Source: a virus | Reading direction: 5' to 3' (one strand) | DNA length: 53,773 nt | IMG/VR virus record: IMGVR_UViG_3300027985_000172 | Coordinates: 1 to 53,773 of that record | Part shown: piece by piece, positions 26,916 to 46,708 of the stretch | Layout: every line of letters begins with the position of its first letter | Numbering within the stretch: the stretch's first letter is position 1 | Position numbers and translations under genes: made by a program | The notes under the pieces: generated by a model | Told to the model about the DNA's origin: nothing | Database searches by the model: none | What the model saw: only the letters and a program-made list of their open reading frames with translations

Positions 26916-26916
26916 G

Positions 26917-33933: not shown

Positions 33934-34196
33934 TTAATCTCTCCGTGGTATTCATCATCATGACAACTAACAAAAGGTTGCTCACCATCAACAAGCACTT
34001 CTACACCAATCTTCTTTAGTGCCATGAATAGAAGGTCTGTATCGCTGTAGCTAGTCCCATTATAGCAGTGTGCATAAGGTTCACGCTCTAAAATGAGAGC
34101 ACCATCAATGAACACCTGCCCACCTTCAGAATAGGAAGTGCCACAAGTCTCACACTCATGCGTGTCGTAGCAAGTCTTAATCTCGACCTTTTTCAC
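33930..34196 (-). CDS. 88-aa protein with a CxxC pair
   Basis: The product is 88 aa. A CYDTHECETCGTSY segment at residues 9-22 could bind zinc with later Cys/His residues (AHCYNG, SCHDDEYH). It overlaps both neighbours by ATGA. No family recognised. Confidence 0.6.
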   Translation of the reverse strand: MKKVEIKTCYDTHECETCGTSYSEGGQVFIDGALILEREPYAHCYNGTSYSDTDLLFMALKKIGVEVLVDGEQPFVSCHDDEYHGEIK

Positions 34197-34375
34197 TTCT
34201 TCTTTCCTTTAGCCCAAGGTTTCCTGAATTTATCTCTCTTACATAAAGAGTAGTATCTATTTTCTTCCAATCTGCTACCAAGTCTCATATGCTTCTTGAA
34301 ACTGTAAAGTCTTGTTTGACCTGCAAACCAGAACAAATAGTCATTATAAGCATTTCTAAGTTTCATTCCTGCCAC
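34193..34375 (-). CDS. 60-aa basic protein
   Basis: The product is 60 aa, strongly basic at its end (RDKFRKPWAKGKKK) and aromatic-rich, hence a possible nucleic-acid binder. It is the first gene downstream (leftward) of the CTTAAG-rich region and so may be the first gene of a transcription unit. No family recognised. Confidence 0.55.
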   Translation of the reverse strand: MAGMKLRNAYNDYLFWFAGQTRLYSFKKHMRLGSRLEENRYYSLCKRDKFRKPWAKGKKK

Positions 34376-34383
34376 CTATATAT

Positions 34384-34527
34384 CTTAAGAAGGTATATCT
34401 CCATGAGAACCTAATAAGATACTAATGACTACATTCTAATGTTATACTCATTAGTTACTCTTAAGTAATATTATACATACTAGTATATTAAATCTCTTAA
34501 GAATGTTTCTTAAGGAGGATTCTTAAG
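34384..34527 (-). promoter_or_regulatory. CTTAAG-rich regulatory module A
   Basis: Five CTTAAG hexamers lie in 144 bases (34384, 34460, 34496, 34509, 34522). Between them are ACTAATG/CATTAGT inverted elements and ACTAGTATATTA. On the minus strand the stretch CTTAAGAGTAACTAATGAGT (34446-34465) matches module B at 46414-46434. The flanking gap (34376-34643) has no convincing gene. It precedes the leftward gene at 34375 in the direction of transcription. Confidence 0.6.
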
Positions 34528-34643
34528 AGGGTTACATAAGTATACTATGGGAGGATTTCGGATTCTTATTCCACACCACATGCAGAAAGTTGCTAAGTGT
34601 TGCAGGTATGATACAGGAATCTGCTATAGGGGTAGTATGATAC

Positions 34644-34826
34644 CTATTCTCCCCGTTGCTTGAGTTCATCAATGAGGGCTTCAGCGTAGTCACAAGCAGC
34701 CATAGCTGCAAACTTAGTTGCAGGATAACCAGCATCTCGTGCTGCCTTAGTCACAAGGGCCATGTTCTCTGGGGAAGATATTAGAACAGCCATGAAACGT
34801 GCTGCATATTCAGATTTGTTGTCCAT
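34644..34826 (-). CDS. 60-aa helical unknown protein
   Basis: The product is 60 aa, Ala-rich and helical (SPENMALVTKAARDAGYPAT). It lies between the non-coding module A and a zinc-binding protein gene. No family recognised. Confidence 0.6.
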   Translation of the reverse strand: MDNKSEYAARFMAVLISSPENMALVTKAARDAGYPATKFAAMAACDYAEALIDELKQRGE

Positions 34827-34847
34827 ACTAGAAGTGATCCTGTTGAA

Positions 34848-35084
34848 TTAGTCTTGCCCCTCTAGTGGAACACGAGTGTTCCAAGATACAATAGTATTAT
34901 ACATAGACACCAGTTCAGCATCTGTGTTATCCGCCCAGTGTAGGTATTCACCACGGGTTGATGCACTACAGTTTTGACAGGACACTTGCCCATACCGCTC
35001 GTGGTCATCCTCTCGGCATACCGTAGCTGTTGCTTTACTGCTGCAGAAAGGGCAAGGCTTTAGGTAGTCACCGAAGTCAGTCAC
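34848..35084 (-). CDS. Lar-like zinc-ribbon protein
   Basis: The product is 78 aa from GTG 35084, chosen because GGGAGAG lies at a good distance upstream and longer starts would run far into the next gene. The LKPCPFCSSKATATVC start and VSCQNCSASTRGEY with a C-terminal WN segment (IVSWNTRVP) match Lar-like restriction-alleviation zinc ribbons found in many phages. The role in restriction evasion is inferred from family resemblance. Confidence 0.65.
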   Translation of the reverse strand: MTDFGDYLKPCPFCSSKATATVCREDDHERYGQVSCQNCSASTRGEYLHWADNTDAELVSMYNTIVSWNTRVPLEGQD

Positions 35085-35142
35085 TTTAGTCTCTCCCACT
35101 TTGTGTAGCAGGTGTGGATGAGCGGAGGCATGACACGCACTT

Positions 35143-35445
35143 TCAATAGTTATGGAGGCCACTATCGCCCCATTTATCATCATCAGTTTCCCCAAGGTCA
35201 TCCATGATCGCATCATGTTCATCCAACTGGTCCCAGAATTCTTGGTCCTTGCGGGCGCGCTCGTATCTATTGAAGTCTCGCCACACGGCACGGGTTTCCT
35301 TTGATGCAGGCAACCTTCCCTGATGCTTCGCTTTACATGACTTCGAGCAAAACTTGCCCCACCCACGCTTTACATCTGCGGTTCTGGCTTGGAACTCCTT
35401 GTGGCATTTTTTGTTTGCGCAAATTACTGTGGTCATACTTGCCAT
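35143..35445 (-). CDS. zinc-finger protein
   Basis: The product is 100 aa from ATG 35445, which has GGAGG seven bases upstream. CANKKCHKEF and KFCSKSCKAKHQGR form a Cys4 zinc finger in the first 45 residues, and the rest is acidic and helical (DQLDEHDAIMDDLGETDDDK). Similar fingers occur in small DNA- or RNA-binding phage proteins. Confidence 0.7.
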   Translation of the reverse strand: MASMTTVICANKKCHKEFQARTADVKRGWGKFCSKSCKAKHQGRLPASKETRAVWRDFNRYERARKDQEFWDQLDEHDAIMDDLGETDDDKWGDSGLHNY

Positions 35446-35510
35446 AAATTTCCTCCAATCGTGTATAGGCATGTTATAAAGTCTTTTAGGTCTTCGCTAT
35501 AGTTAGTCAT
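35433..35510 (-). CDS. 25-aa possible small protein
   Basis: The frame encodes MTNYSEDLKDFITCLYTIGG and NLWQV. It starts within the stop region of the upstream gene (TGATG) and ends inside the zinc-finger gene's start, so its translation could feed that gene. Possible leader or coupling peptide. Confidence 0.35.
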   Translation of the reverse strand: MTNYSEDLKDFITCLYTIGGNLWQV

Positions 35511-35704
35511 CAGAAGTGTTCCTCATGCTTGTTCCACCAGTCAAAAGATTCCTTACAATGCTGCTTACCGAAGATAACTACCCAAAATGACCAGAACAAG
35601 GACTTCCCTTGCAGTCTGTAGGCCCTTGAGCAGAGAGATTCATGTAGGTCATTCTTGTAGAGAATCTTGTGTATCATTGATAATATACGCCATGTTTCAC
35701 TCAT
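35510..35704 (-). CDS. 64-aa unknown protein
   Basis: The product is 64 aa, aromatic-rich (SLFWSFWVVIFGKQHCKESF), with a weakly hydrophobic middle that is probably not a full membrane segment. It ends HEEHF. No family recognised. Confidence 0.55.
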   Translation of the reverse strand: MSETWRILSMIHKILYKNDLHESLCSRAYRLQGKSLFWSFWVVIFGKQHCKESFDWWNKHEEHF

Positions 35705-36019
35705 CTAGTCACCAACAGAAATGTTACGATATTGCCAATGTTGTGGCCTGATGGTATATAGTTTATCCTTCACCTCAAGTAATTTCCTATCCGGTGATTT
35801 AGTAAGTTCTTTAAATAGAAATGTATGGTAGTAAGCCCCAACATACTCATGTAGACCACAAGATGGGCATAGGCGTTCATAACCATATTCGTCATTACAG
35901 TAGATAACACTGTGGTTACAAGCAGCGATTCTTGCCAGTTTTGTCTCCTCTAGTTCTACCTCAAGAAGGTCAATTTTGGTTTGAATTTCTGTTAGCTTGT
36001 CTGTAAAAGATAGACTCAT
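35705..36019 (-). CDS. 104-aa coiled-coil plus zinc-binding protein
   Basis: The product is 104 aa from ATG 36019, whose ATGA overlaps the upstream gene. An N-terminal coiled coil (IQTKIDLLEVELEETKLARI) is followed by possible zinc ligands (CNHSVIYC and LCPSCGLHEY). No family recognised. Confidence 0.6.
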   Translation of the reverse strand: MSLSFTDKLTEIQTKIDLLEVELEETKLARIAACNHSVIYCNDEYGYERLCPSCGLHEYVGAYYHTFLFKELTKSPDRKLLEVKDKLYTIRPQHWQYRNISVGD

Positions 36020-36180
36020 GTGAAGAAAACCACCCAAAAGTAGATAACCCCAAACAAAGAGGCCAACAAAACAGTTGATCCTTTGGTATTAATCCCCCCC
36101 TTAACCTCTACACCTACAACAAGCATAAGGGTAAGAACGATGTGACAGAAAATTCCGATAGTGATTACAATAGGTGTCAT
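36016..36180 (-). CDS. 54-aa two-TM membrane protein
   Basis: The frame encodes MTPIVITIGIFCHIVLTLML and then VKGGINTKGS and LLASLFGVIYFWVVFF: two membrane helices with a short basic loop. It overlaps the genes on both sides by ATGA or one base. It passes through a run of seven G bases. No family recognised. Confidence 0.6.
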   Translation of the reverse strand: MTPIVITIGIFCHIVLTLMLVVGVEVKGGINTKGSTVLLASLFGVIYFWVVFFT

Positions 36181-36527
36181 TATTTATTTCCAAATGCTTT
36201 ATTGTGAGAACCCATAAGTTTTTCATAAATAAAGTTCTCAACAGCCTCACGAAGACGCTTGCGTGTTTTCACCTTTGGCAAGCCACTACCACCACCATAC
36301 AGAGAGCCATATGCGTAAGGCCAGTTCTCAATCCACACTTCAACATCACCAATCTTGCAGGTAAAATAACCAACTGACGTAACACCTACAGTGTCAAGTA
36401 GATGGTTTAGGTGTTTGTCCCACACATCACTAGTTTTAGTGTTCTGAGTCCAATAAATAGGAAGAAGTCTGTAGAAGTCCACTGTTAGTTTCCTTTTTAT
36501 TCCTAGGAGGCTTTCATGCTTTCTCAA
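36180..36527 (-). CDS. 115-aa unknown protein
   Basis: The product is 115 aa, basic at both ends, with PYAYGSLYGGGSGLPKVKT near residue 72. Soluble. Its 5' end overlaps the next upstream gene by 14 bases. No family recognised. Confidence 0.6.
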   Translation of the reverse strand: MRKHESLLGIKRKLTVDFYRLLPIYWTQNTKTSDVWDKHLNHLLDTVGVTSVGYFTCKIGDVEVWIENWPYAYGSLYGGGSGLPKVKTRKRLREAVENFIYEKLMGSHNKAFGNK

Positions 36528-36798
36528 GGTAATCTATAATGTCTTGCTTGTTGTGTGTTTCAATCACTGTAGTATATACCTTACGAACCCTAAACATTCC
36601 GTAATCAAAATTACCTTTAATACCCCAACTGGTATACTTAATTTTACCAGACTTAAGCCATTCAGCAGTTAGCGTCTTAGCCTCTTCATCTGAATAAACC
36701 TCGATACTTTCTTTCGTCCCATCCCAATATCCCATACCACCACCATCACACCAACCCGTTTCTACGTAGATATGTTCTTCCATAAGTTTCATTTTCAT
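36514..36798 (-). CDS. 94-aa unknown protein
   Basis: The product is 94 aa, acidic in its middle (GTKESIEVYSDEEAKTL) and ending in a helix (HNKQDIIDYLEKA). It overlaps the deaminase-like gene by ATGA. No family recognised. Confidence 0.6.
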   Translation of the reverse strand: MKMKLMEEHIYVETGWCDGGGMGYWDGTKESIEVYSDEEAKTLTAEWLKSGKIKYTSWGIKGNFDYGMFRVRKVYTTVIETHNKQDIIDYLEKA

Positions 36799-37190
36799 TT
36801 AATCACCCAACCTTCTGTTTCACAATAATAGATAGTCTCTTTCAAGGAGAACTCACTAATAGCCCTTGCACAACCAATACAGGGGCAGCTATTCCCATAA
36901 GAACCATCCTTCTTCACCCTTACTACATAAAGAGAACTACGAGAAAGCTCCTTTAGTGTAAGCACCTTCAGAGCACTCTTGATAGCATCCGTTTCAGCAT
37001 GAAGAAAGATGGCTTCTGGGTTCTTACTAAATCTAGCAGCAAAAGGGGAAGACTTATAGGAGTTGACACCAGTGGCTACAAGGTTTCCCTTGTGAATAAC
37101 CCCTGCTGCCAACTTCCATTTCCCTCTAGTCCCTTCGTTGTTCTCTGCCAGTCTAGCAAGATACTTTATAATGGTTTGATTGATATTCAC
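36795..37190 (-). CDS. cytidine/dCMP deaminase-like protein
   Basis: The product is 131 aa. The zinc-binding pair of the deaminase fold is present: HAETDAI (residues about 63-69, with catalytic Glu) and SCPCIGCARAISEF (PCxxC, about 100-113). Length and layout resemble phage dCMP deaminases, though no regulatory domain is visible. With ThyX and RNR it would feed dUMP into dTMP synthesis. A role in base modification or RNA editing is a weaker alternative. Confidence 0.8.
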   Translation of the reverse strand: MNINQTIIKYLARLAENNEGTRGKWKLAAGVIHKGNLVATGVNSYKSSPFAARFSKNPEAIFLHAETDAIKSALKVLTLKELSRSSLYVVRVKKDGSYGNSCPCIGCARAISEFSLKETIYYCETEGWVIK

Positions 37191-38356
37191 AGCACAAATG
37201 AGATGGTATCACCTTTGTAGAACACTTCGTCTGCGTATGGTAGGTTTTCTTCGAAGACTGCGAGACCATCATACATGACAACCCCGCCGCCACAAGAGTA
37301 GTTTGCAAAAGTGTTGTCCTCAACTTTGATGTAAGTGTGGCCCTGCGTCTTGAAAGCTACCACTTCCCGCTCAGGTTCCTTCGGAGTTTCTTCAGGTTTA
37401 ACCCGATAGTATACATAAGAGCCCCAAGTAGGAACGCCGAGAGTGTCTAGCCAACCAAGACTCGGATCACCAGAGTATTCAATAGTCTTTACTTCGTGAT
37501 GTGCAAGAAGGAGGGCACCTTTTTCTTCAGGAGACATTTCTCCCCACGTTTTGTAAGTCATTTGATCTTCCTCCACAAGCTCTAGTTCACTTTCGTAGTG
37601 TGAATATGCCCAGGTATTTTCATTGTTATCATCAATAACTACCCCGTAAAGGATTGGTTCAGGATAAAAAACCTCAGTGATTGTCCCTTCTTTACCACAA
37701 AAGGGGTAAGAGTTGTTTACAGAAACAACACGATCACCAACCTTAAATTTAGTCATTTTAATTTTCTCTTCAGCAGGTTCCACAAGACGATAGTCAGTTT
37801 CCTCATGATCCCACAAGAGAATATAGCCACCATCATTATGACAAGCCTTAGTCATTTCTTCATTGATGGTGTAAGCACGCTCTTGCCACTCTGGCTTGTC
37901 ACCCCACTTATCTTTCTTCCACTTCCAGTTAATTTTATCACCGGGTTTGAAGGTAGTAATTATTTCGTCATCAACGTAGGGGTCCAACCAAGAAATCTCC
38001 GCTCCCAATGGGGTATCTTCATTAGACCAAAGAACTAGCGCCTCATTGTTATAAATCCCCGTAATCACACCAATACTTCCCTTACGGTGACTATACCCAT
38101 GAAGGTTACCAACCACTTTATCACCAACTTTGAATTTACTCATATTAGTTTCCTTTTCATTAAGGTTTACCAAAGAGATTTCACTTGACCAACAAGAGTA
38201 TGACCTCTTACAGTTATCCCATAGCACCCTACAAGAAACTTCATTAATTTCTTCTGTAATATTTCCAAGTTCTACTGGGCAACCTTTAAATTGTCCTTCC
38301 TCTTGTTCATACCCACTACTAATATTCTTTACCCGGTCCCCAACTTTAAACATCAT
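37187..38356 (-). CDS. protein of repeated KOW/SH3-like domains
   Basis: The product is 389 aa. The opening of a KOW/SH3-like barrel is repeated four times: MFKVGDRVKN (about 2), KFKVGDKVVG (about 73), TFKPGDKINW (about 135) and KFKVGDRVVS (about 202). A different C-terminal domain (WGEMSPEEKGALLLAHHE, then VFYKGDTISF) follows and is shared with the 76-aa protein at 27175. Tandem barrels of this kind usually bind nucleic acid or protein. No enzyme motif. It is the largest unknown gene of the leftward block. Confidence 0.75.
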   Translation of the reverse strand: MMFKVGDRVKNISSGYEQEEGQFKGCPVELGNITEEINEVSCRVLWDNCKRSYSCWSSEISLVNLNEKETNMSKFKVGDKVVGNLHGYSHRKGSIGVITGIYNNEALVLWSNEDTPLGAEISWLDPYVDDEIITTFKPGDKINWKWKKDKWGDKPEWQERAYTINEEMTKACHNDGGYILLWDHEETDYRLVEPAEEKIKMTKFKVGDRVVSVNNSYPFCGKEGTITEVFYPEPILYGVVIDDNNENTWAYSHYESELELVEEDQMTYKTWGEMSPEEKGALLLAHHEVKTIEYSGDPSLGWLDTLGVPTWGSYVYYRVKPEETPKEPEREVVAFKTQGHTYIKVEDNTFANYSCGGGVVMYDGLAVFEENLPYADEVFYKGDTISFVL

Positions 38357-38537
38357 CTTTTCCTTTCATATAAGAATCACAATCTTCAGAGAAGTCAGAA
38401 AAAGCAATAGGAGGTTCACCAGAGCAACCTTCCCACCAACGTTTAGCCCCTTCTCGTTGTTCCCCACCGAAATAGCGCCAGCATTCCTTGTTGATACAAT
38501 TGCTATTGCAGAAGGTTCTATCTTTGTAGCAAATCAT
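38346..38537 (-). CDS. 63-aa cysteine-rich protein
   Basis: The product is 63 aa from ATG 38537. MICYKDRTFCNSNCINKECW gives four Cys in a short stretch, followed by WWEGCSGEPPIAF and DCDSY. Such spacing suggests a zinc site; related tiny phage proteins with NxNCINxxC motifs are common. It overlaps the KOW-like gene. Confidence 0.6.
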   Translation of the reverse strand: MICYKDRTFCNSNCINKECWRYFGGEQREGAKRWWEGCSGEPPIAFSDFSEDCDSYMKGKDDV

Positions 38538-38592
38538 TTCTGTTCTCCCATTTGGCGAGGGCTTTCCGGGCAATTTGCTTGTCGAAAACGCA

Positions 38593-39075
38593 TCATTGGC
38601 ATTGTTGTGCTCCGAGGTTGACTGCGTCTACGCCAGTAATCCACGTCATGGTGCTATTGTGTGCTGGCCCAGCAAGATACCAGTCGGCCATGCGCTGCGG
38701 GTAGTAATTTGCGATGGCTTGCGACCACCATTCTACGGTGTAAGGCCCGCGGTGAATAGTCGGTGCGTGGAAGCCGAGTCTGGCTCCAGGATAGACGCAG
38801 CCGACCGCGAGAAGCATCGTGCAGGCGCTTGCGCACACACCTCTAATTTCGACACGCTCGCCTGTCAGGATCATGCGATTGATCTTGTTCCCGCGCACCC
38901 CGACATCTCCGCCAAGATCTATGTGGACGGTGTGAGATTGTGCGTAGGCGGAGATCGGCAGGATCGCGAGCGCAGCGGCGATGATGATGGATTTCATTCC
39001 GCGCATCGTTTCTGTGATAAACTGAGGTGTAGTTTTCTCAATCACCGCTATGCTAGTGTTGATCTTGTCAGTCAT
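38593..39075 (-). CDS. imported ClpP-like periplasmic protein (COG3904-like)
   Basis: The product is 160 aa from ATG 39075 (ATGA overlap with the sigma-like gene), but a signal peptide begins only at Met27 (MKSIIIAAALAILPISAYA, cleavage before QS), so ATG 38997 may be the functional start. After it come HIDLGGDVGVRGNK and GVCASACTMLLAVGC with FHAPT, as in ClpP-like periplasmic proteins with Ser and His of the active site. The DNA from about 38590 to 39000 is GC-rich, unlike both neighbours. It looks like a host-derived insertion. Protease activity is inferred and the acidic residue is not assigned. Confidence 0.7.
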   Translation of the reverse strand: MTDKINTSIAVIEKTTPQFITETMRGMKSIIIAAALAILPISAYAQSHTVHIDLGGDVGVRGNKINRMILTGERVEIRGVCASACTMLLAVGCVYPGARLGFHAPTIHRGPYTVEWWSQAIANYYPQRMADWYLAGPAHNSTMTWITGVDAVNLGAQQCQ

Positions 39076-39596
39076 TTCTGTTCCCATTCATACAGAATAC
39101 TTTTCATTTTACCAGTAGCTTTGGTTAGAAGTTTACTAGCCTTGCTTTGTGTGATTCCCAACACCTTCGCTACCTCCCCTACCTTATAGCCACCCTTTAC
39201 AGTCATTGTCAAGAGGGTTGCTTCCTCGTAAGGGAATGTTTTCTCAATATAGGACCATAGTTGTTCATCCCCTGTAAGCCCCTCTGAGGGCCTTTCCTCT
39301 GCTAGGCCGTAGGGGTCCACCCACAAGCCCTCTTCGGCCTCTAGCCCCTCTTGTATGGCCTCCTGAAGGGCCTTCCTATTCTCTAGGGTTGGGGGAACCT
39401 GCACAAGCTTGTTACGGAAGTTAACCCATTCATACATGTGGCGTCTAGCCTTACCAAAAAGGGCCTCCTTGTTTGTTCCTTTCTTTAGTTCTTCTAGGAG
39501 GTAACAGAAGCATTCCTGTTGAATATCTTCATAGTCAGGATTCTTTCGGTATTTCTTGCTGATACCTTTTGCCAAGATTAATAGGTCTTTAGGCAT
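39072..39596 (-). CDS. sigma factor-like protein
   Basis: The product is 174 aa from ATG 39596. A region-2-like helix with DYEDIQQECFCYLLEELKK lies at residues about 20-40 and a C-terminal helix-turn-helix (KVGEVAKVLGITQSKASKLL) at about 140-160, as in sigma-70 family region 4. It is short for a sigma factor (usual 160-200 aa for ECF-like proteins). It could redirect host RNA polymerase to phage promoters, perhaps those in the CTTAAG modules. Confidence 0.7.
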   Translation of the reverse strand: MPKDLLILAKGISKKYRKNPDYEDIQQECFCYLLEELKKGTNKEALFGKARRHMYEWVNFRNKLVQVPPTLENRKALQEAIQEGLEAEEGLWVDPYGLAEERPSEGLTGDEQLWSYIEKTFPYEEATLLTMTVKGGYKVGEVAKVLGITQSKASKLLTKATGKMKSILYEWEQK

Positions 39597-39870
39597 AAGT
39601 GGTATTCCAATACACGTTCTCAAGAATTTCAATAGCCCGATTAATCATTTCTTTAGTAGGCTCTACCTCAAGCCAATCATCTACAATGTCGTCCCAATAG
39701 GTAAATTCCATGTCACAGAAGGTAGGTTGGGTGTCTTCTTGCATGTAATCAGGGAGGTCTGACCAATATTCATTATCAACGATTCCATGTTCTGCAAGCA
39801 TAGCTACACAACCATAGTCTACACCATTGATGTTAAACTCAATATCATATTGATACATGTCTTTTTCCAT
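39589..39870 (-). CDS. 93-aa acidic unknown protein
   Basis: The product is 93 aa from ATG 39870; a GGAG eight bases upstream supports this over the ATG at 39876. It is very acidic (SDLPDYMQEDTQPTFCDMEF, then DDIVDDWLEVEP). A DNA-mimic or inhibitor role is possible but unsupported. It overlaps the sigma-like gene start. Confidence 0.6.
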   Translation of the reverse strand: MEKDMYQYDIEFNINGVDYGCVAMLAEHGIVDNEYWSDLPDYMQEDTQPTFCDMEFTYWDDIVDDWLEVEPTKEMINRAIEILENVYWNTTYA

Positions 39871-39872
39871 TT

Positions 39873-40055
39873 TCATTTCTCCTTCTTCACAATGTAAAGC
39901 CCCATTCGTGCATAGCGTAGCACACTGTAACCTGCTGAACAAGCCCCAACTCCCTCATATTGTTGGTATTCCAAGAGGGCTTTTTCTGCTTGTTCCATGA
40001 TATGTTCTTGACGCTCTTTTGGCAGTTTTGCTAAATATTCATTAATCGTTACCAT
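39873..40055 (-). CDS. 60-aa helical protein
   Basis: The product is 60 aa from ATG 40055. MVTINEYLAKLPKERQEHIM and a QQYEGVGACSAGYSVLR end. Helical with a Lys/Arg-Glu-rich start. No family recognised. Confidence 0.55.
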   Translation of the reverse strand: MVTINEYLAKLPKERQEHIMEQAEKALLEYQQYEGVGACSAGYSVLRYARMGLYIVKKEK

Positions 40056-40203
40056 AAGAATTCCCATCAGCTTTATTCAATTGTTGCACCAAGTAGTCTG
40101 CCACCTGCTTCTCTACCACCTGACACATGACTAGCTCTTGTCCATCTGGTGTTTTATATGAGACAAACCAATTCCCAAAGGCGTCTTGAAAAGAGCTATA
40201 CAT
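40042..40203 (-). CDS. 53-aa unknown protein
   Basis: The frame encodes MYSSFQDAFGNWFVSYKTPD and ends SYGND. It overlaps the start of the next gene, as usual in this operon. No family recognised. Confidence 0.55.
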   Translation of the reverse strand: MYSSFQDAFGNWFVSYKTPDGQELVMCQVVEKQVADYLVQQLNKADGNSYGND

Positions 40204-40208
40204 CTTAA

Positions 40209-40628
40209 TTACCCCCAGTTCCGACTTACTTCACGAACTGTTTCAATCCCGTCATATTCATCAATTTCCCATTGAACATCATCAGGAATTTCCACAACCT
40301 TAATTTTTGCACAGCTTCCATTAGCTTTCTCACCAAGATTTTCTACTACTGCAATCCAGTCTGCATCAGCCCGATCATCTGGACGAGTATCAATAGTGTT
40401 TTCTTTATATAATTTATTCGATTTGCGACGGTCTTCAATACTAGCAGCATACCAAGCAGCACCGCGAAGATAACCGTCGCGCTTATCTTCTGGAATTGTC
40501 CAATATGTTTTCATAGTAAACTCATGGTTTTCTGGATAGATAGACAACCCCTTACGTTTAGCATAAGCATATACAGCTTCCTCTGAAATAGAGAAACCAC
40601 CATAGCAAGTGTTAATCATCACCTTCAT
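40209..40628 (-). CDS. 139-aa unknown protein
   Basis: The product is 139 aa. The start MKVMINTCYGGFSISEEAVY and AYAKRKGLSIYPEN is found in a group of conserved unknown phage proteins. Soluble, with no membrane segment. It precedes several very small genes. Confidence 0.65.
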   Translation of the reverse strand: MKVMINTCYGGFSISEEAVYAYAKRKGLSIYPENHEFTMKTYWTIPEDKRDGYLRGAAWYAASIEDRRKSNKLYKENTIDTRPDDRADADWIAVVENLGEKANGSCAKIKVVEIPDDVQWEIDEYDGIETVREVSRNWG

Positions 40629-40637
40629 TGTTCTTCC

Positions 40638-40862
40638 TCACACAATAGAAATTACAGAATCAAGACGAAAAGCTTTCCAGTCTCCGGTGTTCACTTCCCT
40701 TACAGCACAAGCACTTTCCACTTTAGCCTGCCCTGCCACGGGAGGTTCCATCCACCCATGAAGAACACGTTCGGTTCCGTCTTTCTTGAGGAAGACAACA
40801 GTGAAGCTACGGTTGTAGCCAATGGTGTTTAGCTTCTTCTGCACTTCTTGTTTAGTTAGCAT
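40638..40862 (-). CDS. 74-aa DUF2693-like protein
   Basis: The product is 74 aa. A compact beta fold is suggested by SFTVVFLKKDGTERVLHG and VREVNTGDWKAFRLDSVISI, resembling small WYL- or SH3-like phage proteins such as DUF2693. Function unknown. Confidence 0.6.
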   Translation of the reverse strand: MLTKQEVQKKLNTIGYNRSFTVVFLKKDGTERVLHGWMEPPVAGQAKVESACAVREVNTGDWKAFRLDSVISIV

Positions 40863-40951
40863 TTGTCATACCCCTCAATGAAGCAAGCAATATCTGTGGT
40901 GATTTCTGTCTTTTGGAATACTTCAACTGGGTAGTCATAAGATTTCTTCAT
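40856..40951 (-). CDS. 31-aa small protein
   Basis: The frame encodes MKKSYDYPVEVFQKTEITTD and ends EGYDKC. It overlaps the next gene by ATGCTAA. Short but with sensible spacing; no family recognised. Confidence 0.45.
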   Translation of the reverse strand: MKKSYDYPVEVFQKTEITTDIACFIEGYDKC

Positions 40952-40957
40952 AATTTG

Positions 40958-41260
40958 TTACCCATTCCATTCTGTATCAATGTTACCAAGTATGTCAATT
41001 ACATCTTTCATTACAGTTTCAGGTCTAGTATCACCGTAACCACTTACGTATATCTGCAACACATCAGTAGCATCTGCAATTTTATTACAAATTTCTCCTA
41101 GGTGTTTTTCCAGTGCATCGTTGTTTTCTTTGTCGAACACATAGTCTTCCATGTCATATAGAATCTCTGCAATATCTGGAAACAAGTTACGCAAGGTGTC
41201 CCAATCATGTTTGGTGTAATTAGTGATGGGACCACTAAGTTTTACTGATTGTAGGTTCAT
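40958..41260 (-). CDS. 100-aa unknown protein
   Basis: The product is 100 aa from ATG 41260. The start LQSVKLSGPITNYTKHDWD recalls the opening of deoxyribosyltransferase-like (DUF4406) proteins, where SGPIT is typical, but the rest is too acidic and short to be sure. Function uncertain. Confidence 0.55.
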   Translation of the reverse strand: MNLQSVKLSGPITNYTKHDWDTLRNLFPDIAEILYDMEDYVFDKENNDALEKHLGEICNKIADATDVLQIYVSGYGDTRPETVMKDVIDILGNIDTEWNG

Positions 41261-41274
41261 TTTAGGTTTTCCTT

Positions 41275-41424
41275 TCAAAATGGTGGCTCTTCCCAACGAT
41301 CTTTAGGGGTCCACGGGGTGTATTCACTGGTTCCCCTCAGTTCATCTTCTACAATGATTCGTTGCCGCTTGCAAGCGTTTTCTGGTAGGAAATCTCGGAG
41401 GAAGGTAGTTAAGTCATGATTCAT
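41275..41424 (-). CDS. 49-aa unknown protein
   Basis: The product is 49 aa from ATG 41424, starting MNHDLTTFLRDFLPENACKR and ending DRWEEPPF. The start overlaps the upstream stop. No family recognised. Confidence 0.55.
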   Translation of the reverse strand: MNHDLTTFLRDFLPENACKRQRIIVEDELRGTSEYTPWTPKDRWEEPPF

Positions 41425-41425
41425 C

Positions 41426-41830
41426 TCAACCCCACTTTCTCTTAATTTCCTGCTTAATCTGTGCAAGATGTTTCACATTAGTGTATGGATAGTAACAATG
41501 GTTCTTCACTTCTTCCTCATTAACCATAATCAATGTAGGACCAATGTAGCAATCCCGCCACAGCCTGTCCTGACAAGCCCAACCGTGTTCCATGTCTGCA
41601 TGAGTGAGAGAAGCAGCACCAACAACCCCTTTCCTCACCCATAGGACAACCCAAGGACGACGCTTTCCACCAACTACAGTGTGCCAGAAAGTATCTCCTA
41701 CACGAAGTTTTTCCACTCTAATCAAATCACGTTCCGGGTCAATAGTGCGCAACCAAGCAAGAACCTCTCGTTTAGCTACATTTGCGTCTTTCCAATCTTC
41801 CAGACGAGTAATGATGTCTGAAATCTTCAT
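41426..41830 (-). CDS. 134-aa unknown protein
   Basis: The product is 134 aa. The sequence RVEKLRVGDTFWHTVVGGKR with RPWVVLWVRKGVVGAASLTH suggests a small beta barrel. It is the first gene after the hairpin at 41885 and the promoter at 42120. No family recognised. Confidence 0.65.
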   Translation of the reverse strand: MKISDIITRLEDWKDANVAKREVLAWLRTIDPERDLIRVEKLRVGDTFWHTVVGGKRRPWVVLWVRKGVVGAASLTHADMEHGWACQDRLWRDCYIGPTLIMVNEEEVKNHCYYPYTNVKHLAQIKQEIKRKWG

Positions 41831-41884
41831 GGCGATTCCCCTTTCATATCAAGCAGTTATCTATGATTCCTATAAATAGGAAAA

Positions 41885-41907
41885 GGCCCACAGTTTCCCG
41901 CAGGGCC
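41885..41907 (-). terminator. hairpin with T tract, leftward
   Basis: On the minus strand GGCCC (41907-41903) pairs with GGGCC (41889-41885) and is followed by TTTTCC. It lies between the 30-aa gene and the 41830 gene, so it would stop or attenuate leftward transcripts from the promoter at 42120. The loop is long (13 bases), so the strength is uncertain. Confidence 0.5.
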
Positions 41908-41999
41908 AATCCGAGAGACTGTCAAACAATCACACTATTAGAGATTGCAACAGCGCAGTATTTCACGACCACCCTGTCATAGTCATAGATTTCTCGCCC

Positions 42000-42092
42000 T
42001 TAGCAATCCTCGAAATATGTCTTGACAGTTTTAGGCTCTCGTTCAGTGGTAGTCACAATCACTTCTTGACCATCCGTGTAGTAAATCAGCAT
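42000..42092 (-). CDS. 30-aa small protein
   Basis: The frame encodes MLIYYTDGQEVIVTTTEREP and ends YFEDC. It follows the TTGACA/TATATA promoter at 42120-42148, so it may be the first gene of that transcript. No family recognised. Confidence 0.45.
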   Translation of the reverse strand: MLIYYTDGQEVIVTTTEREPKTVKTYFEDC

Positions 42093-42119
42093 GTGTTTAT
42101 CCTTCGTTGCTGTTCGTCT

Positions 42120-42148
42120 TATATAGTTGATTCGTCTTGTGGTGTCAA
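42120..42148 (-). promoter_or_regulatory. sigma-70-type leftward promoter
   Basis: On the minus strand TTGACA (42148-42143) is separated by 17 bases from TATATA (42125-42120), a near-consensus vegetative promoter. It is directly upstream of the 30-aa gene and reads leftward into the main early operon. It sits just downstream of the broken HNH gene's end. Confidence 0.8.
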
Positions 42149-42157
42149 CAGGAATTT

Positions 42158-42717
42158 TCAAGGCTCGTCAGGGAAGTTTAGGGTGGCGGAATCACCAAGC
42201 AAGTCCTTGGCTTTCTTGTCATAAGCCCTTGCCGCTTCCTCTGGTGTGTCATGGTAGCCAAGACAATAGGTGACACCATCAAGAGAGATTCTTGCCAAAT
42301 ATTTTCCAGCCATCTTTGAGGCACCACGGAAGCCTGTTGTGCTACACTTATAAGCACCTTTATTTGAGTTGTTTTCTTTTGTGTCACATCCCTTAAATTT
42401 TCAATCCTATGGTCTAGCGAGTTCTTATTAATGTGGTCAATTGTGTGTTTAGGCCAATCCCCATAGTAAAGAAACCAAGCAAGTCTACCACCCATGATTG
42501 ATACAGGGCGACCAAACAGTGTTGGTTTAGTTACAGACATTTTGTAGCCATCCTTGCACACCCATGTTTGTAGGCAACTTTTACCTGCATAATTATCATC
42601 AAAGAAAATACTACCTCTTTGCTTCCAAATAAGTTCTCCTGTTACTGGGTTGTAAGAAATCCTTCTTTTGATTTCATTTTTAATTTCTTCCTGATCAAGA
42701 AAATCTTTAACTTTCAT
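42158..42717 (-). pseudogene. HNH-AP2 homing endonuclease, frameshifted
   Basis: The first 118 codons give an intact N-terminal part and HNH core (HTIDHINKNSLDHRIENLRD). After DVTQKK the frame is lost near 42373-42382; in the next frame an AP2 domain continues (NSNKGAYKCSTTGFRGASKM, ARISLDGVTYCLGYHDT) to TGA at 42158. One A missing from an A-run (ACACAAAAG) explains it. It is either an inactivated homing gene or a sequencing error. Confidence 0.85.
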
Positions 42718-42744
42718 TTTATCCTCTGTAGTTTATGTTTTTAC

Positions 42745-42868
42745 GAGCTATTTTTACGGTGGGTGAGCAATTTTCTCGGTGTATCTCCTTAATTTTACGA
42801 ACAATTTCCACTGTAGGGGGTGCTCGTTATACTCGCTGTGGGTGCTCATTTCCCATTGTAGGGGGTAT
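42745..42868. repeat. five imperfect tandem repeats of about 20-34 bp
   Basis: Units start near 42745, 42765, 42799, 42822 and 42844. Each has the pattern GAGC/GCTC, an AT-rich centre, and ends in a G-rich tract (GGTGGGTG, TCGGTGTATC, TAGGGGGTG, TGTGGGTG, TAGGGGGTAT). They lie just upstream of the HNH pseudogene, in the leftward control region. Iteron-like binding sites or operator copies are likely. Confidence 0.65.
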
Positions 42869-42903
42869 CTTATGCAAGACTAAGCCCGTCAAAAACATAT
42901 TCC

Positions 42904-42972
42904 AATATCTGTGTATAAACATATATTGATATACAGATATTTAGATATTCCCATATATTGATATACAGATAT
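42904..42972. repeat. AT-rich iterons, two direct copies plus an inverted one
   Basis: CATATATTGATATACAGATAT occurs at 42920-42940 and again at 42952-42972 exactly, 32 bases apart (about three helical turns). An inverted, slightly divergent copy AATATCTGTGTATA lies at 42904-42917. Such spacing is typical of repeated protein-binding sites at origins or operators. Confidence 0.75.
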
Positions 42973-43146
42973 CTTCCCCTTTGAATGTAAACCGAATCGT
43001 TCATTTTAAACCCAAGCGAAAAGAAGGCTTGACAGGATCAAACCTGTTTTGTGTGACCTTTATGTCACTGATTCTTATTTGTCCATGTTCGGTGTTTTTT
43101 GCGACAACAGGATGTTGCCCAGCCCGACGAATCGGGGAATGCTTCA

Positions 43147-43175
43147 TAGATACGCGATTCGCTTGCTAGTGTCAA
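43147..43175 (-). promoter_or_regulatory. leftward promoter candidate
   Basis: On the minus strand TTGACA (43175-43170), 17-base spacer, TATCTA (43152-43147). It reads leftward through the iterons and repeats towards the HNH pseudogene and early operon. Another TTGACA at 43278-43273 has no good -10. No gene of more than about 60 codons is evident in 42720-43569. Confidence 0.55.
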
Positions 43176-43312
43176 CCTGTCTTTGGCAATCCGCAATCTG
43201 GCATTGCCGCGTAATGTCCTACACATTACACAAAGGAATCGTGGGCGCGCGATTAGCATAGGCACAAGGAAGTGTCAAGAGAAACAATTTTCGGATTCTA
43301 TCCTCTTTTCTG

Positions 43313-43342
43313 TTTACACACCTGGATTCGATCTGCTATCTA
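43313..43342 (+). promoter_or_regulatory. rightward early promoter candidate
   Basis: TTTACA (43313-43318), 18-base spacer, TATCTA (43337-43342) preceded by TGC (extended -10 type). It lies about 230 bases upstream of the first rightward early gene at 43570. Weaker than the leftward promoters by eye. Confidence 0.4.
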
Positions 43343-43569
43343 TTAGCCATGCCGCGACGGGATATATCCGAAGGGGAGTGGGGCTGGCGGCCCTGCCTAG
43401 GACCAAGACTCACTGAGAGTCACTAACAGGTCAGATATGCACCCTTTACCTTTACCGCTAGAAGCAAGGCCGCGCAGATTGCCCCGCATGCTAACACTAG
43501 CGAAAGGTTTTCTCGGAAAGCTTTAGCAAAGGCTTTCTCAGTAAACCTAACATAAGAAAGGGAAATAAA

Positions 43570-43974
43570 ATGACTGACGAAATCACTTATAGTGCTGTTT
43601 TGCGGCGGATTGAATACAGCGCTAAAGAAATCATCGAGGAGCTTGCACCTTTTCCCAAGGAAAACACGGTTGAAGCTTGGGAGGCTTATCAAGAAGCTCT
43701 TGAATCTTTCTTTGATGATTCCCGTGATATGGCATGGGGGGAAGTCGGAAATTGGGATTGGATGATTTATACGTATCAAGGATTCCTTGTTTACGATTGC
43801 CTCCCTTCTGACCTGCAAACCCAATGCGAGGAGGAATATTGGGAATGTAACGGTGCTGTGAAAGGTGAAAGCCCCTATGAACTCGGCGCTTCAATGGCTT
43901 TTTTTGCTCTTGTGTCCTTGCTGGCTCAAGAGATTGAACGGCAATCTCAGAACCAAATGGAGAATCTTAGCTAA
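43570..43974 (+). CDS. 134-aa acidic early protein
   Basis: The product is 134 aa with many Glu and Asp and few basic residues (DSRDMAWGEVGNWDWMIYTY, CEEEYWECNGAVKGESPYEL). A good AAAGGG site precedes the ATG. It is the first gene of the rightward early block, where host takeover proteins are often encoded. A DNA-mimic anti-restriction or host-inhibitor role is possible but not shown. No family recognised. Confidence 0.65.
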   Translation: MTDEITYSAVLRRIEYSAKEIIEELAPFPKENTVEAWEAYQEALESFFDDSRDMAWGEVGNWDWMIYTYQGFLVYDCLPSDLQTQCEEEYWECNGAVKGESPYELGASMAFFALVSLLAQEIERQSQNQMENLS

Positions 43975-44120
43975 TGTGGGTTGTCAAATTTAGCCCTATT
44001 TTCTCTTTTGGGGATAAAGACAGGCGAGAGTTTGAGACAGAAGAAAAAGCAAAGCAATGGGCGCAAATGTGCGGCTATAGCAAAACCTGCAAAATCGAGG
44101 AAAAGGAAAAGACAGAATGA
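43974..44120 (+). CDS. 48-aa early protein
   Basis: The frame encodes MWVVKFSPIFSFGDKDRREF and ends EEKEKTE. Start and end are coupled to neighbours by TAATG and ATGA. Beta-then-helix, with basic and acidic clusters. No family recognised. Confidence 0.6.
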   Translation: MWVVKFSPIFSFGDKDRREFETEEKAKQWAQMCGYSKTCKIEEKEKTE

Positions 44121-44281
44121 AACTTGCTACCGACTCTAAATGCTACTCCCTCGCAAAAGAAGGACTCGTCTCCATGATCCCCTTTGGCCCGCTTATGTCT
44201 TTGCAAGAAGCCCAACAAATGCGGCAATTCTATGCGGAAATCGGCGAGGAATATTTCGTCGTGAATCTGCAAAGCTTGTGA
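44117..44281 (+). CDS. 54-aa early protein
   Basis: The frame encodes MKLATDSKCYSLAKEGLVSM and ends VVNLQSL. It overlaps the preceding gene by ATGA. It shares the MKLA start with the gene at 45112 by chance or ancestry. No family recognised. Confidence 0.6.
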   Translation: MKLATDSKCYSLAKEGLVSMIPFGPLMSLQEAQQMRQFYAEIGEEYFVVNLQSL

Positions 44282-44316
44282 AACAAGCGCCCCTCCACAG
44301 CCTGTAAGGAAACAAG

Positions 44317-44523
44317 ATGAAAACATATCCCGAAGACAAGGCGGATTTTGTGATCGAAAACAAACCCACCATTACTTTCGTCAGGGCTAAATCACACAAA
44401 GCCAAAAAGGCAATGCCTATTTGGGCGCCAAGTTATGAAAGGGCTATTGCTGCACAAGACACACAAGCCTTAATCGCTTGGCTTTGTGAAAAAGGCTTTA
44501 AGCCTTGCATTAAACTTACCTGA
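44317..44523 (+). CDS. 68-aa basic early protein
   Basis: The product is 68 aa, basic in its middle (VRAKSHKAKKAMPIWAPSYE). A GGAAA site precedes the ATG. No family recognised. Confidence 0.6.
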   Translation: MKTYPEDKADFVIENKPTITFVRAKSHKAKKAMPIWAPSYERAIAAQDTQALIAWLCEKGFKPCIKLT

Positions 44524-44552
44524 ATCAATCAAACATGAGAGGAAACTGATAA

Positions 44553-44798
44553 ATGACGAATCTGGAAACAATCAAAAAGCAATTGGCTCAAGCTGAAAAG
44601 GCGAAGGCCGAAATGGAAAAGCTGACGCAAGAGGCTGACCAGAAGGTTATCCAAGCGCAAGAGGCTCTGGAACAAGCCAAGCAAGAACGCAGGGGGCTTT
44701 ACGAAAGCCTTGGGCTTAGTGTCCATAAAGGCCGCCCCAAAGGTTCCAAGAACAAGCCGAAACAGGACGTTGAAACGCCCCCTAGCGAAGAGGCTTAA
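44553..44798 (+). CDS. coiled-coil AT-hook protein
   Basis: The product is 81 aa. Residues 1-52 form a continuous coiled coil (KKQLAQAEKAKAEMEKLTQE). The basic segment HKGRPKGSKNKPK near residues 57-69 contains an AT-hook (GRPKGSKNKP), and the C-terminus is acidic. This layout, an oligomerising coil plus minor-groove hook, recalls H-NS-type nucleoid proteins. Likely a DNA-binding regulator or silencer or antisilencer; H-NS relation is inferred, not shown. Confidence 0.7.
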   Translation: MTNLETIKKQLAQAEKAKAEMEKLTQEADQKVIQAQEALEQAKQERRGLYESLGLSVHKGRPKGSKNKPKQDVETPPSEEA

Positions 44799-44876
44799 TG
44801 TGTCTTTATTGGTTAGCCTTTAGGGGATTCCTTTAGGCTAACTAGACAAATGCACATACAAGAAAAGGGAAAGAAG

Positions 44877-45098
44877 ATGAAACCGACTCCTAGCCTTTGT
44901 CAGCTTATCAAGCCTTGTGAATATGTATTTCAGCGTGGAATCAAGGCATATGAAAGGGCGGAAACTCTTATTGATGAATACATCAGCGAAAGCGAAATTA
45001 GCTTTTGTGAGAATCCTAGGGTGCAAGGATATGGAAAGGGCAAGGAACGGCGTTATGCAATTGTTCTAACAGATACCAACCTGATTCAATATCTGTGA
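44877..45098 (+). CDS. 73-aa early protein
   Basis: The product is 73 aa from ATG 44877, with GGGAAAG seven bases upstream; an ATG at 44850 is less likely. Contains QLIKPCEYVFQRGIKAYERA and a C-terminal beta stretch. No family recognised. Confidence 0.6.
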   Translation: MKPTPSLCQLIKPCEYVFQRGIKAYERAETLIDEYISESEISFCENPRVQGYGKGKERRYAIVLTDTNLIQYL

Positions 45099-45111
45099 AA
45101 GGAAAGACAGA

Positions 45112-45339
45112 ATGAAATTAGCAGTTTGTGATAATGTGGAAAGCCTTGTTGAATACCTCACAAGGGAAGGTTGGTTTTTCGAGGGTTCCGACGATGCAGG
45201 GCAGTTCTGGAATCACCCTATTAGCGGGGCTGAAGTTGTCTTGGACTATGGCCCGGATGGTGAGGGACGGCTTAGGCTTGATGGGGTATCCCACTGTGAG
45301 GTTGCCCAGATGGGGGCGTATGTTGTGGGGTATGCCTAA
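45112..45339 (+). CDS. 75-aa early protein
   Basis: The product is 75 aa, acidic, starting MKLAVCDNVESLVEYLTREG and containing YGPDGEGRLRLDGVS. It is the last gene of the early rightward block. The region after it (45340-46708) is non-coding. Confidence 0.6.
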   Translation: MKLAVCDNVESLVEYLTREGWFFEGSDDAGQFWNHPISGAEVVLDYGPDGEGRLRLDGVSHCEVAQMGAYVVGYA

Positions 45340-45443
45340 GAGGGCCTGTGGTGGTTCTATAGCCCTCCCCATACACTCGGCTAGGATAATAGCCAAAGCA
45401 TGACAATGCGATCTAGAACCCCTCCTATAGGCTCTGTGCTATA

Positions 45444-45659
45444 TGTTACATTATAACACTAGATCAACATGTTAGGGTAGTATTTAAGGGAGCATATTTG
45501 ACTCTTTGGTAAATGTTTTATCGTTTGGTAAAATACTGTGGTTGCTGCACCCTTCCCTCTCTATGTCAACAATTACTTTCACATCCTCTTGTAACTCATT
45601 GTCATTGTTACATTTATACAACACTCACCATTGCTTGCCCTATGTGTTACATTATAACA
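45444..45659. repeat. pair of TGTTACATTATAACA inverted-repeat sites
   Basis: The 15-bp sequence TGTTACATTATAACA, itself an inverted repeat (TGTTA/TAACA), occurs exactly at 45444-45458 and 45645-45659, each preceded by TAT. A related TGTTACA...TGTAACA pair lies near 46173-46191. Single TGTTACA or TGTAACA motifs occur between. Likely operator sites for a dimeric regulator. Confidence 0.7.
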
Positions 45660-45695
45660 TGACGTAACGTAAACTAGTATGTGCTACCTTCCCTG

Positions 45696-45761
45696 GTGCA
45701 GGTAGTTCAACCATTGAACCATCTATAAGATGCATTGTGCAGGAATGTTTAACCATTGAAC
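45696..45761. repeat. pair of GTTCAACCATTGAAC palindromes
   Basis: GTTCAA-CCA-TTGAAC at 45705-45719 is a perfect inverted repeat. GTTTAACCATTGAAC at 45747-45761 has one change. Each is preceded by GTGCAGG within about ten bases, making a longer direct repeat (45696-45719 and 45737-45761). A second class of binding site in the same gap. Confidence 0.7.
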
Positions 45762-45902
45762 TATTCTTTTGTTTCACCCATTGTAACAATTCGTGATGTC
45801 TCTTGTGTAACAATCTCTTGACGAATCATGTGAGGTATGCATGGGACCCTTGGAATTATTCCAAAGTGAAATGGGGGTGGGTGGTTTACCCTCCATAAGC
45901 CT

Positions 45903-46087
45903 AAAGAAAAATTTCAAAATGGCCTATTTACTTAGTAAATCCCCCGTAACTACAAAGAAAGATTTCAAAAGGGTCTTATCATTAGGTCTAACCAGACACA
46001 AATACAAAGAAAATTCCTAACCTGCTCCCATGGAAAATCATCTAACCAAAACCTGCCAAAATACAAAAAAGAAAATTTCTAAAGGGC
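45903..46087. repeat. four AAAGAAA-ATTTC-AAAGGG iterons
   Basis: Copies at 45903-45924, 45954-45975, 46006-46020 (shorter) and 46065-46087 follow the pattern AAAGAAA(A/G)ATTTC(A/T)AAAGGG. Spacing is 50-60 bases, and the strand is A-rich. A 76-codon ATG frame (46030-46260) crosses part of this array but looks like chance. Candidate origin or packaging-recognition repeats. Confidence 0.65.
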
Positions 46088-46356
46088 TTTTGACCAGATT
46101 CTACCAGTTCAGACCAAAAAGACACAATTCAAAAGCTGTTTCTGAAAATATTCCACACAATCTGATCACTTTTTGTTACAATCTCTGTAACATTGTGATG
46201 TTTGTTGCAAACTTTCTTTCGTTCAGAATCAACCAGTTAGCAATTATCACGCTTTTGTGATGTAATTTCCTGCACCCAGATGGAATAAAAACCCCAAAAT
46301 TTCCCATATATATTAGTAGGGGTAGGGGTTACTAAGGTATCCTACCAATGAAGGTG

Positions 46357-46532
46357 CTTAAGAGAGTATCTTAAGAAAGTAGTATATCTGTTAAGTAAAT
46401 ATTACATAAGGTTCTTAAGAAGTAACTAATGTGTAATCATTAGTATACACCTTATGAACTAGTTATTACTAACTAGTATATTATATATTAATAAGAATAT
46501 AACTAATGTATAATCATTAGTATAGTCTTAAG
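46357..46532 (+). promoter_or_regulatory. CTTAAG-rich regulatory module B
   Basis: CTTAAG occurs at 46357, 46370, 46414 and 46527. A 24-bp direct repeat AACTAATG(T)GTAATCATTAG lies at 46424-46447 and 46501-46524 with one mismatch; each copy is an ACTAATG/CATTAGT inverted repeat. CTTAAGAAGTAACTAATG matches module A on the opposite strand. It lies upstream of the terminase genes, so late control is likely. Confidence 0.65.
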
Positions 46533-46567
46533 AAGGTTTCCAATACGAACTACCTTCTATAGTTGCG

Positions 46568-46595
46568 GCAGGTTTAAGAGGCTACGCCTCCCTGC
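46568..46595 (+). other. nested hairpin before terminase genes
   Basis: GCAGG (46568-46572) pairs with CCTGC (46591-46595) and GAGGC (46578-46582) with GCCTC (46586-46590) across a TAC loop; TTTAA is bulged. A second stem GAATAG/CTATTC lies near 46633-46649. Located between module B and the small terminase, it could be part of a packaging site or an mRNA leader structure. Confidence 0.45.
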
Positions 46596-46708
46596 ATTAC
46601 GGACTACCATCCTTAAGATAGTGTCCATTAAAGAATAGCTCTCCTATTCACCATACACATCAAGACATGATGGACTTTAGGTAGAGCTTCCTATTTAGGC
46701 AGGTTGAT

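Follow-up and report, generated by a model that had tools for sequence, protein, structure and literature searches.

The DNA analysed here (the window) is the complete IMG/VR record IMGVR_UViG_3300027985_000172, 53,773 bases of a siphovirus-like phage that encodes a T7-type helicase-primase, a PolA-type polymerase, PhoH, a ribonucleotide reductase, ThyX, a terminase and a portal. Its genes are read leftward from about 42.7 kb to 14 kb, and rightward from about 44 kb to the end, continuing into 13.8 kb. The subject of this study is a pair of arrays of the palindrome CTTAAG, one within the leftward gene set and directly before the helicase-primase block (module A), the other directly before the small and large terminase genes (module B), together with the promoter-like element found upstream of each and a sigma70-family protein encoded by the same phage (Table 1).

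Table 1. Position and description of the features discussed, in window coordinates
Feature	Position	Strand	Description
Module A array	34384-34527	-	Five CTTAAG, at 34522, 34509 and 34496 (13-bp steps), then 34460 and 34384; ACTAATG/CATTAGT dyads in between
Module A promoter, -35-like block TGGAATAAGAATCC	34561-34574	-	Common with B; matches the -25 to -16 peak of A/B/SSB agreement in 14 genomes
Module A promoter, extended -10 block AATCCTCC then CATAGTAT	34542-34557	-	Hand-aligned to B; upstream block with 5/8 letters in common
Module B promoter, -35-like block TGGAATAAAAACCC	46281-46294	+	Common with A
Module B promoter, extended -10 block AAATTTCC then CATATATA	46297-46312	+	Own-pair block agreement and position profile
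Module B array	46357-46532	+	CTTAAG at 46357, 46370, 46414 and 46527, another at 46612; two TAACTAATGTRTAATCATTAGTATA dyads 77 bp apart
Sigma70-family factor, 174 aa	39072-39596	-	phrog_1740, E = 2.6e-5; family profile and PDB matches; structure model
Helicase-primase, T7-type	30597-33182	-	phrog_239, E = 9e-87; DnaB_C and Toprim; first recognisable operon gene downstream of module A
SSB-like gene	26382-26936	-	Name inferred, without profile match; family in 13/13 genomes
Small terminase region	46709-47130	+	Two overlapping reading frames downstream of module B; family in 10/13 genomes, adjoining terL
Large terminase	47250-48623	+	phrog_979, E = 7e-38; starts the late operon downstream of module B

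Two palindrome arrays and their conservation

The original prediction on this DNA held that both modules carry four to five CTTAAG sites, a shared CTTAAG-containing sequence and ACTAATG...CATTAGT inverted repeats, and that each lies ahead of genes transcribed in its own direction. All of this was recovered: the sites are in place, CTTAAGAGTAACTAATGAGTA is present in module A on the minus strand and CTTAAGAAGTAACTAATGTGTA in module B on the plus strand, the dyads occur in both modules (B has two 25-bp copies, at 46423-46447 and 46500-46524), and the downstream genes follow the direction of each module. The claim of a common orientation relative to transcription mostly stands, the part that fails being ACTAGTATATTA, which in module A is on the plus strand and runs against transcription. 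The genome-wide totals, proposed as a check, are unremarkable: 27 CTTAAG where 19.6 are expected, a count equalled in 9 of 100 shuffles, and 13 ACTAATG where 8.4 are expected. It is the clustering that goes far beyond chance: an interval of 180 bp with at least four CTTAAG arose in 1 of 1,000 local dinucleotide shuffles and two such intervals in none of 1,000. Furthermore, a scan of all palindromic hexamers turned up no cluster in the window other than A and B. The ACTAATG dyad (ACTAATGTNTAATCATTAGT) has no exact match in viral_contigs and is, as far as searched, private to the window phage.

Megablast of 34000-46800 against phage records gave no match. We gathered related loci through the large terminase (98) and the helicase-primase (101), and counted 93 of the former and 49 of the latter after excluding by hand duplicates, loci with short upstream sequence and the distant group L165-L204; these distant primase relatives mostly lack a CTTAAG cluster, only L168 having one. 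At least three CTTAAG are found within 250 bp upstream at 46 of the 93 terL loci and 19 of the 49 primase loci. CTTAAG reaches a density of 7.7 per kb at -750 to -500 of terL. Ahead of the primase match the density peaks at 3.6 per kb, compared with about 0.1-0.6 per kb over most flanks. A blind scan for palindromic hexamers in 205 records (the window and two of its pieces included) returned as top cluster CTTAAG in 62, TATATA in 14 and CTATAG in 12, and on contigs long enough to hold both places the clusters sit at A and B, that is, before helicase-primase and before terS/terL. The word itself can change: CTATAG replaces CTTAAG at both modules of G007 and at one of the two in G012, while G005 has mixed CTTAAG/CTATAG arrays at 24.8-25.5 kb and 30.5 kb, several kb off terL and primase, with orientations that are still opposite. 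As judged from these loci, modules A and B are conserved among related phages.

The fact that B precedes terS and terL in most relatives showing B would also suit a terminase recognition (pac or cos) site, of which module A would be a by-product. Nevertheless, module A carries an array of the same kind, changes in concert with B and lies far from the terminase, and in G005 the B-type array is about 7 kb from terL; we regard such a site as very improbable.

The flanks of CTTAAG are self-complementary out to ±3 (p = 0.0005, 0.02 and 0.001 at ±1, 2 and 3), so that the unit of the array is a dyad of about 12 bp with CTTAAG at its core. Of 142 distances between neighbouring sites, 36 fall at 11-14 bp (at 10-14 bp one would expect 11.9), none at 6-9 bp (10.1 expected) and only one at 15-20 bp (13.5 expected). 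Side-by-side occupation of 12-bp dyads by a dimeric protein is expected to give such a pattern, and repeated dyads at fixed spacing are what characterizes the operator array of a dimeric regulator. The arrays are hence probably sites of a dimeric DNA-binding protein. Genes that we take to be ParB/DUF3102-like lie near module A in some relatives and are not widely shared.

We also weighed whether the palindromes act in RNA, as leader hairpins for antitermination or message stability heading two long operons. The arrays do stand where a 5′ leader is expected, inverted repeats that are long and nearly perfect occur in some relatives, and the folding energy of 47 modules (near-copies removed from 66) is far below that of shuffles (mean z -3.5). 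However, the antisense strand is as stable (z -3.39), the sense strand being the lower in 23 of the 47 (p = 0.66), which favours symmetry at the DNA level; Rfam gave no match, and the spacing is regular without a fixed hairpin plan. A role in RNA is thus quite improbable in our estimate. As a separate observation, the T_L095 array (L095 near 46) folds at very low energy whichever strand is taken (z about -15), which suggests a very long inverted repeat in this region.

A probable bipartite promoter upstream of the arrays

An unsupervised search upstream of the first palindrome returned a block ending in a TATA-like core. In the window, the promoter parts are TGGAATAARAAYCC and, ahead of the cores CATAGTAT and CATATATA, the blocks AATCCTCC and AAATTTCC; both promoters (34542-34574 and 46281-46312) fall outside the bounds that the original prediction had set for the modules. 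The letters of this promoter vary from phage to phage yet agree between A and B within one phage. Indeed, when the A and B module starts of nine genomes were compared all-against-all, the best partner was the genome's own in 8 of 9 cases for the promoter and 9 of 9 for the array (permutation p = 5e-5), and the window's A and B promoters are still each other's best partner in this comparison. In a set of 14 genomes, A and B of one genome share 7.43 of the 8 bp immediately before TATA, against 2.87 of 8 for pairs from different genomes (p = 2e-5). The 25 promoters, 14 genomes and 17 A-SSB pairs on which these and the following comparisons draw were hand-picked where the promoter is visible.

When each genome was scanned with its own block, a third site came up 37-109 bp ahead of the SSB-like gene. 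Of the nine scanned genomes in which this gene is mapped, six have it (Roseobacter phage CRP-6, G006, G007, G010, G011 and G012); in G007 and G010 its letters are identical to those at B. The site was seen by eye in G005 and G009, which brings its frequency to 8 of 13 genomes (the 17 A-SSB pairs being no measure of frequency), and it is also present in L035, L038, L138, L145, L146, G016, G033 and other loci. The copies that were read carry no CTTAAG array, which means that promoter and array are separable. Own-minus-other agreement of the A, B and SSB promoters peaks at -25 to -16 and at -10 to -1 and dips in the interval. For A-B and A-SSB it is close to zero farther upstream than -26, B versus SSB still reaching 0.27 at -30 to -26. 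Agreement confined to two blocks has the shape of a two-part sigma promoter, and makes the copying of long tracts an unlikely explanation.

These results bear as well on the possibility of transcription-primed replication starting at the modules, in the manner of T7: promoter RNA would prime in the AT-rich array, and the arrays would be the duplicated origins that the original prediction offered as an alternative. The phage does encode a T7-type helicase-primase and a PolA-family polymerase, and the arrays lie downstream of promoters, average 69% AT and are absent at the SSB promoter, all of which would suit such origins. On the other hand, the spacing of 11-14 bp and the exact dyads suggest a packed protein over plain AT-rich melting, and the minimum of the cumulative GC skew, near 42.5-43 kb, is at neither module, although gene orientation confounds the skew. 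Origins of this kind therefore seem to us rather unlikely.

A T7/SP6-like RNA polymerase promoter was set aside, no such polymerase being among the large genes annotated. We also noted, directly before module A, a box like TGTAACAATTTGTGATG about 25-40 bp upstream of the TATA core in L038, L136, L138, L139, L154, L159 and L053 (CRP-6), where it often overlaps the stop codon of the sigma gene; a similar box of the window, near 46195, is farther from the TATA core than in these relatives.

A phage sigma70-family protein that appears to change with the -10 block

The sigma70-family protein of the window belongs to a family of about 190 residues, whose gene in most relatives directly precedes module A and the primase, and which is present at 38 of 49 primase loci and in 11 of 13 genomes. 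Pfam Sigma70_r4, the -35-binding helix-turn-helix of region 4, is found in 27 of 32 members, and Sigma70_r2, the region of core binding and -10 recognition, in 11 of 32 with E values down to 3e-6; a DLxQEG motif is conserved in the family. The window's own protein scores 15.5 bits against Sigma70_r4, below the curated cut-off of 24.1 bits, and Pfam detects no region 2 in it. The best solved relatives of the family profile are sigma factors, FliA-like ones among the first. The structure model (mean pLDDT 86.6, pTM 0.45) is helical with two domains whose placement is unreliable; of the 50 structural matches listed for it, nearly all are chains of sigma or sigma-like proteins, and region-4 structures align at Z of about 10 over 57-72 residues. 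The protein is a true, previously unannotated member of the sigma70 family, conserved in these phages. In 50,697 phage records, tblastn with two relatives of this sigma matched only gp14 of CRP-6, a 'hypothetical protein' and the only named relative, and one 4-kb fecal fragment.

The relation between this sigma and the promoters is best seen in a natural swap between two loci, L035 and L038. Their primase stretches are 95% identical and the aligned columns of sigma region 4 are 88% identical, whereas region 2 is only 47% identical. Region 2 of L035 is instead 99% identical to that of L139, and region 2 of L038 is 78% identical to that of L138. The SSB promoters of the pair, aligned over 170 bp, differ by 10 bases that all fall in one 18-bp patch at the -10 block (TGAACT-TATATATTAGT versus GGTTGC-TATAGTATTAT). 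Module A shows the same change at -10, with one base of difference in the array; there the -35 part and the DNA farther upstream differ too. The block of L139 is of the L035 type, and that of L138 is of the L038 type. At two promoters lying apart, therefore, the -10 block goes with region 2. Furthermore, since the array stayed the same while region 2 and the -10 block changed, the site of the sigma would not be the array. As read from these aligned loci, the natural swap links the sigma to the promoters. The original proposal of a phage-specific promoter for the encoded sigma is well supported in this respect, with the correction that the site of the sigma would be the bipartite element upstream of each array rather than CTTAAG or ACTAATG.

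A partial Mantel test (n = 25) associates the block with the N-terminal part of the sigma (r = 0.44, p = 0.0002, allowing for primase and region 4), an association that persists after thinning to 19 (r = 0.32, p = 0.0006). No association of the block with region 4 or with the primase was observed at n = 25. Across the 25 promoters the signal is sharp at -8 to -1. Mantel tests on related sequences are rough, and their results differ between this set and a set of 14 distant genomes, as described below.

The proposed regulatory unit

With a probability of about 0.7, we propose that one regulatory unit is present twice, as A and as B, each time made of a promoter for the phage sigma and a downstream array for a dimeric protein. 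Conservation, position, the agreement of A and B (and of the SSB promoter), the sigma family and the swap pair are read directly from sequence; where transcription starts, that the sigma binds there, when it does so, and what the array protein is and in which sense it acts are inferred. The host polymerase would make the early messages, that of the sigma among them, and host RNA polymerase carrying the phage sigma would then read the bipartite promoter through its -35 and extended -10. In this manner the sigma would turn on the leftward helicase-primase/replication operon at A, the rightward terminase/structural late operon at B, and the SSB-like gene where its promoter exists. A dimeric protein sitting on the array, just downstream of -10, would set level or timing at A and B and not at the array-free SSB promoter. 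Whether it would do so by repression or activation is a guess, and the array may also be part of an origin.

Several observations weigh against this proposal. In the 14 more distant genomes it is region 4 that comes out ahead in the partial test (N|C -0.04/-0.03; C|N 0.36/0.33, p = 0.001-0.003), with no more than 8 of the 91 pairs above 50% identity in region 2. G006 and G012, which are 72% alike in region 2, have different blocks. The agreement between the A and B blocks of the window (5/8) is the lowest of the 14, and the register of the 14 pairs and the choice of the 17 A-SSB pairs were made by eye, which flatters both tests. The SSB promoter was not found in the window, nor in G001, G002, G008 and G013, and no sigma was detected in G002 and in the fragment G001. 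A search for a conserved array-binding protein among the families common to 13 genomes gave no candidate beyond the sigma and the small terminase. Finally, several relatives, among them G008 and G013, have near-consensus sigma70 promoters (TTGACG-N17-TATATA), possibly readable by the host sigma70.

If this last point is extended to all promoters, they would be ordinary host sigma70 promoters, and the likeness of A, B and SSB would go back to nothing more than a recent duplication or gene conversion; the A and B promoters of G007 and G013 are indeed alike over the entire stretch from -35 to -10. In the agreement profile, however, the likeness is limited to the two blocks: the spacer between them agrees less well, and little agreement is left farther upstream than -26. 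Host sigma70 would also need no phage-specific block. The SSB promoters of L035 and L038 changed only in their 18-bp patch, together with sigma region 2. Moreover, standard scans for sigma70 promoters and terminators of 42700-47300 (a range that leaves A out) gave matches at about shuffle level and did not list the B promoter. We consider reading by host sigma70 unlikely.

The nearest known systems are the sigma systems of phiEco32 and of Salmonella phage 7-11, in both of which the sigma-dependent promoters likewise keep their places and change their letters (PMC8948821, PMC4331800). In phiEco32, the phage-encoded sigma gp36 directs host RNA polymerase to middle/late promoters (tAATGTAtA), and early/middle versus late genes are read in opposite directions as they are in the window (PMC8948821). 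In contrast, gp36 has no region 4 and uses a single-element promoter, while the window system has a recognisable region 4 and a bipartite promoter; phiEco32 has six promoters, and three were seen in the window group. PhiEco32 is of a different phage lineage, and no palindrome arrays at its promoters appear in the portions of the two papers examined, PMC8948821 having zero uses of 'palindrom' or 'repeat'. The sigma of phage 7-11, SaPh711_gp47, is closer in having region 4 and a bipartite late promoter (GTAAtg-16-aCTA), and there too the places of the promoters were kept and their letters changed between related phages (PMC8948821). That comparison, though, is of independently acquired sigmas of about 15% identity, whereas here close relatives exchange region 2 with the -10 block. 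With promoters and sigma covariation observed at the level of sequence, the window system appears to work like the phiEco32 type, but it is outside that phage group, tblastn with the two sigma relatives having matched only CRP-6 and the 4-kb fragment. By profile and fold, the window sigma is closest to FliA/sigma28-type and extracytoplasmic function (ECF) sigmas (FliA, SigF, WhiG, SigH, SigW and others), from which it differs in its length of only about 190 aa, in a region 3 that is short or absent, in that no anti-sigma was found, and in being a phage gene.

No report of this sigma or of these arrays was found in the literature searched. CRP-6, a phage of Rhodobacteraceae FZCC0042, has all three promoters, with extended -10 blocks at about 4116 (plus strand), 8055 (plus) and 42187 (minus), and few CTTAAG palindromes; it was published as a novel group, in a paper whose text has zero uses of sigma, promoter, palindrom or repeat (PMC6918029). 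Phage sigmas with their own promoters are known; the system of the window is of another lineage than the two above and has, besides, the domain-wise swapping and the arrays. We give about even odds to a broader picture, in which a widespread group of marine-type siphoviruses would keep a private transcription channel made of a fast-changing, domain-swapping sigma and a few promoters scattered over the genome (replication, SSB, late), with -10 and -35 blocks that are recoded as the sigma changes. In it, region 2 would be exchanged and region 4 kept, and an independently evolving array layer, read by a protein whose own specificity switches between CTTAAG, CTATAG and CATATG, would be present only at the two promoters that head operons. 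Dozens of related phages offer a natural mutagenesis series in which region 2 varies jointly with the -10 block while the remaining DNA is nearly identical, so that a residue-to-base code for -10 and extended -10 recognition becomes directly testable, and they offer sigma/promoter pairs that may not cross-react. The proposed unit would explain gene timing in a phage group reported to be widespread in the ocean, whose sigma is annotated as 'hypothetical', and the arrays point to a further DNA-binding regulator.

Several minor features of these genomes were recorded along the way. The T modules of L004, L007, L012, L019, L011, L016 and L020 have repeated GCTACC words and paired hairpin-like stretches between the array and terS; not seen at module A, these are a possible leader or packaging element. 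A methyltransferase-like protein (19374-20042, minus strand) is common to 11 of 13 genomes and might conceivably methylate CTTAAG. The small terminase of the window appears split over two frames, whereas relatives have a single frame of up to 146 aa; the split may be an assembly slip or a real shift. The helicase-primase contains an insert of about 300 residues between its zinc and Toprim parts that matches intein-bearing profiles (PhoH, ribonucleotide reductase, thymidylate synthase) and is probably an intein. In CRP-6, the primase seemingly begins upstream of the annotated 4327 (at about 4200), with a zinc-finger-like start right after module A. The DNA polymerase gene (27697-30160, minus strand) is spread over three reading frames, and a gene for an HNH endonuclease (29203-29712) lies between them, likely a homing-endonuclease insertion or intron. 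Lastly, a 652-aa gene between terminase and portal (49019-50977, plus strand), without PHROG match, has 57-59% GC in a genome of 43% GC and is likely a recent arrival, our guess being a tail spike-like protein.

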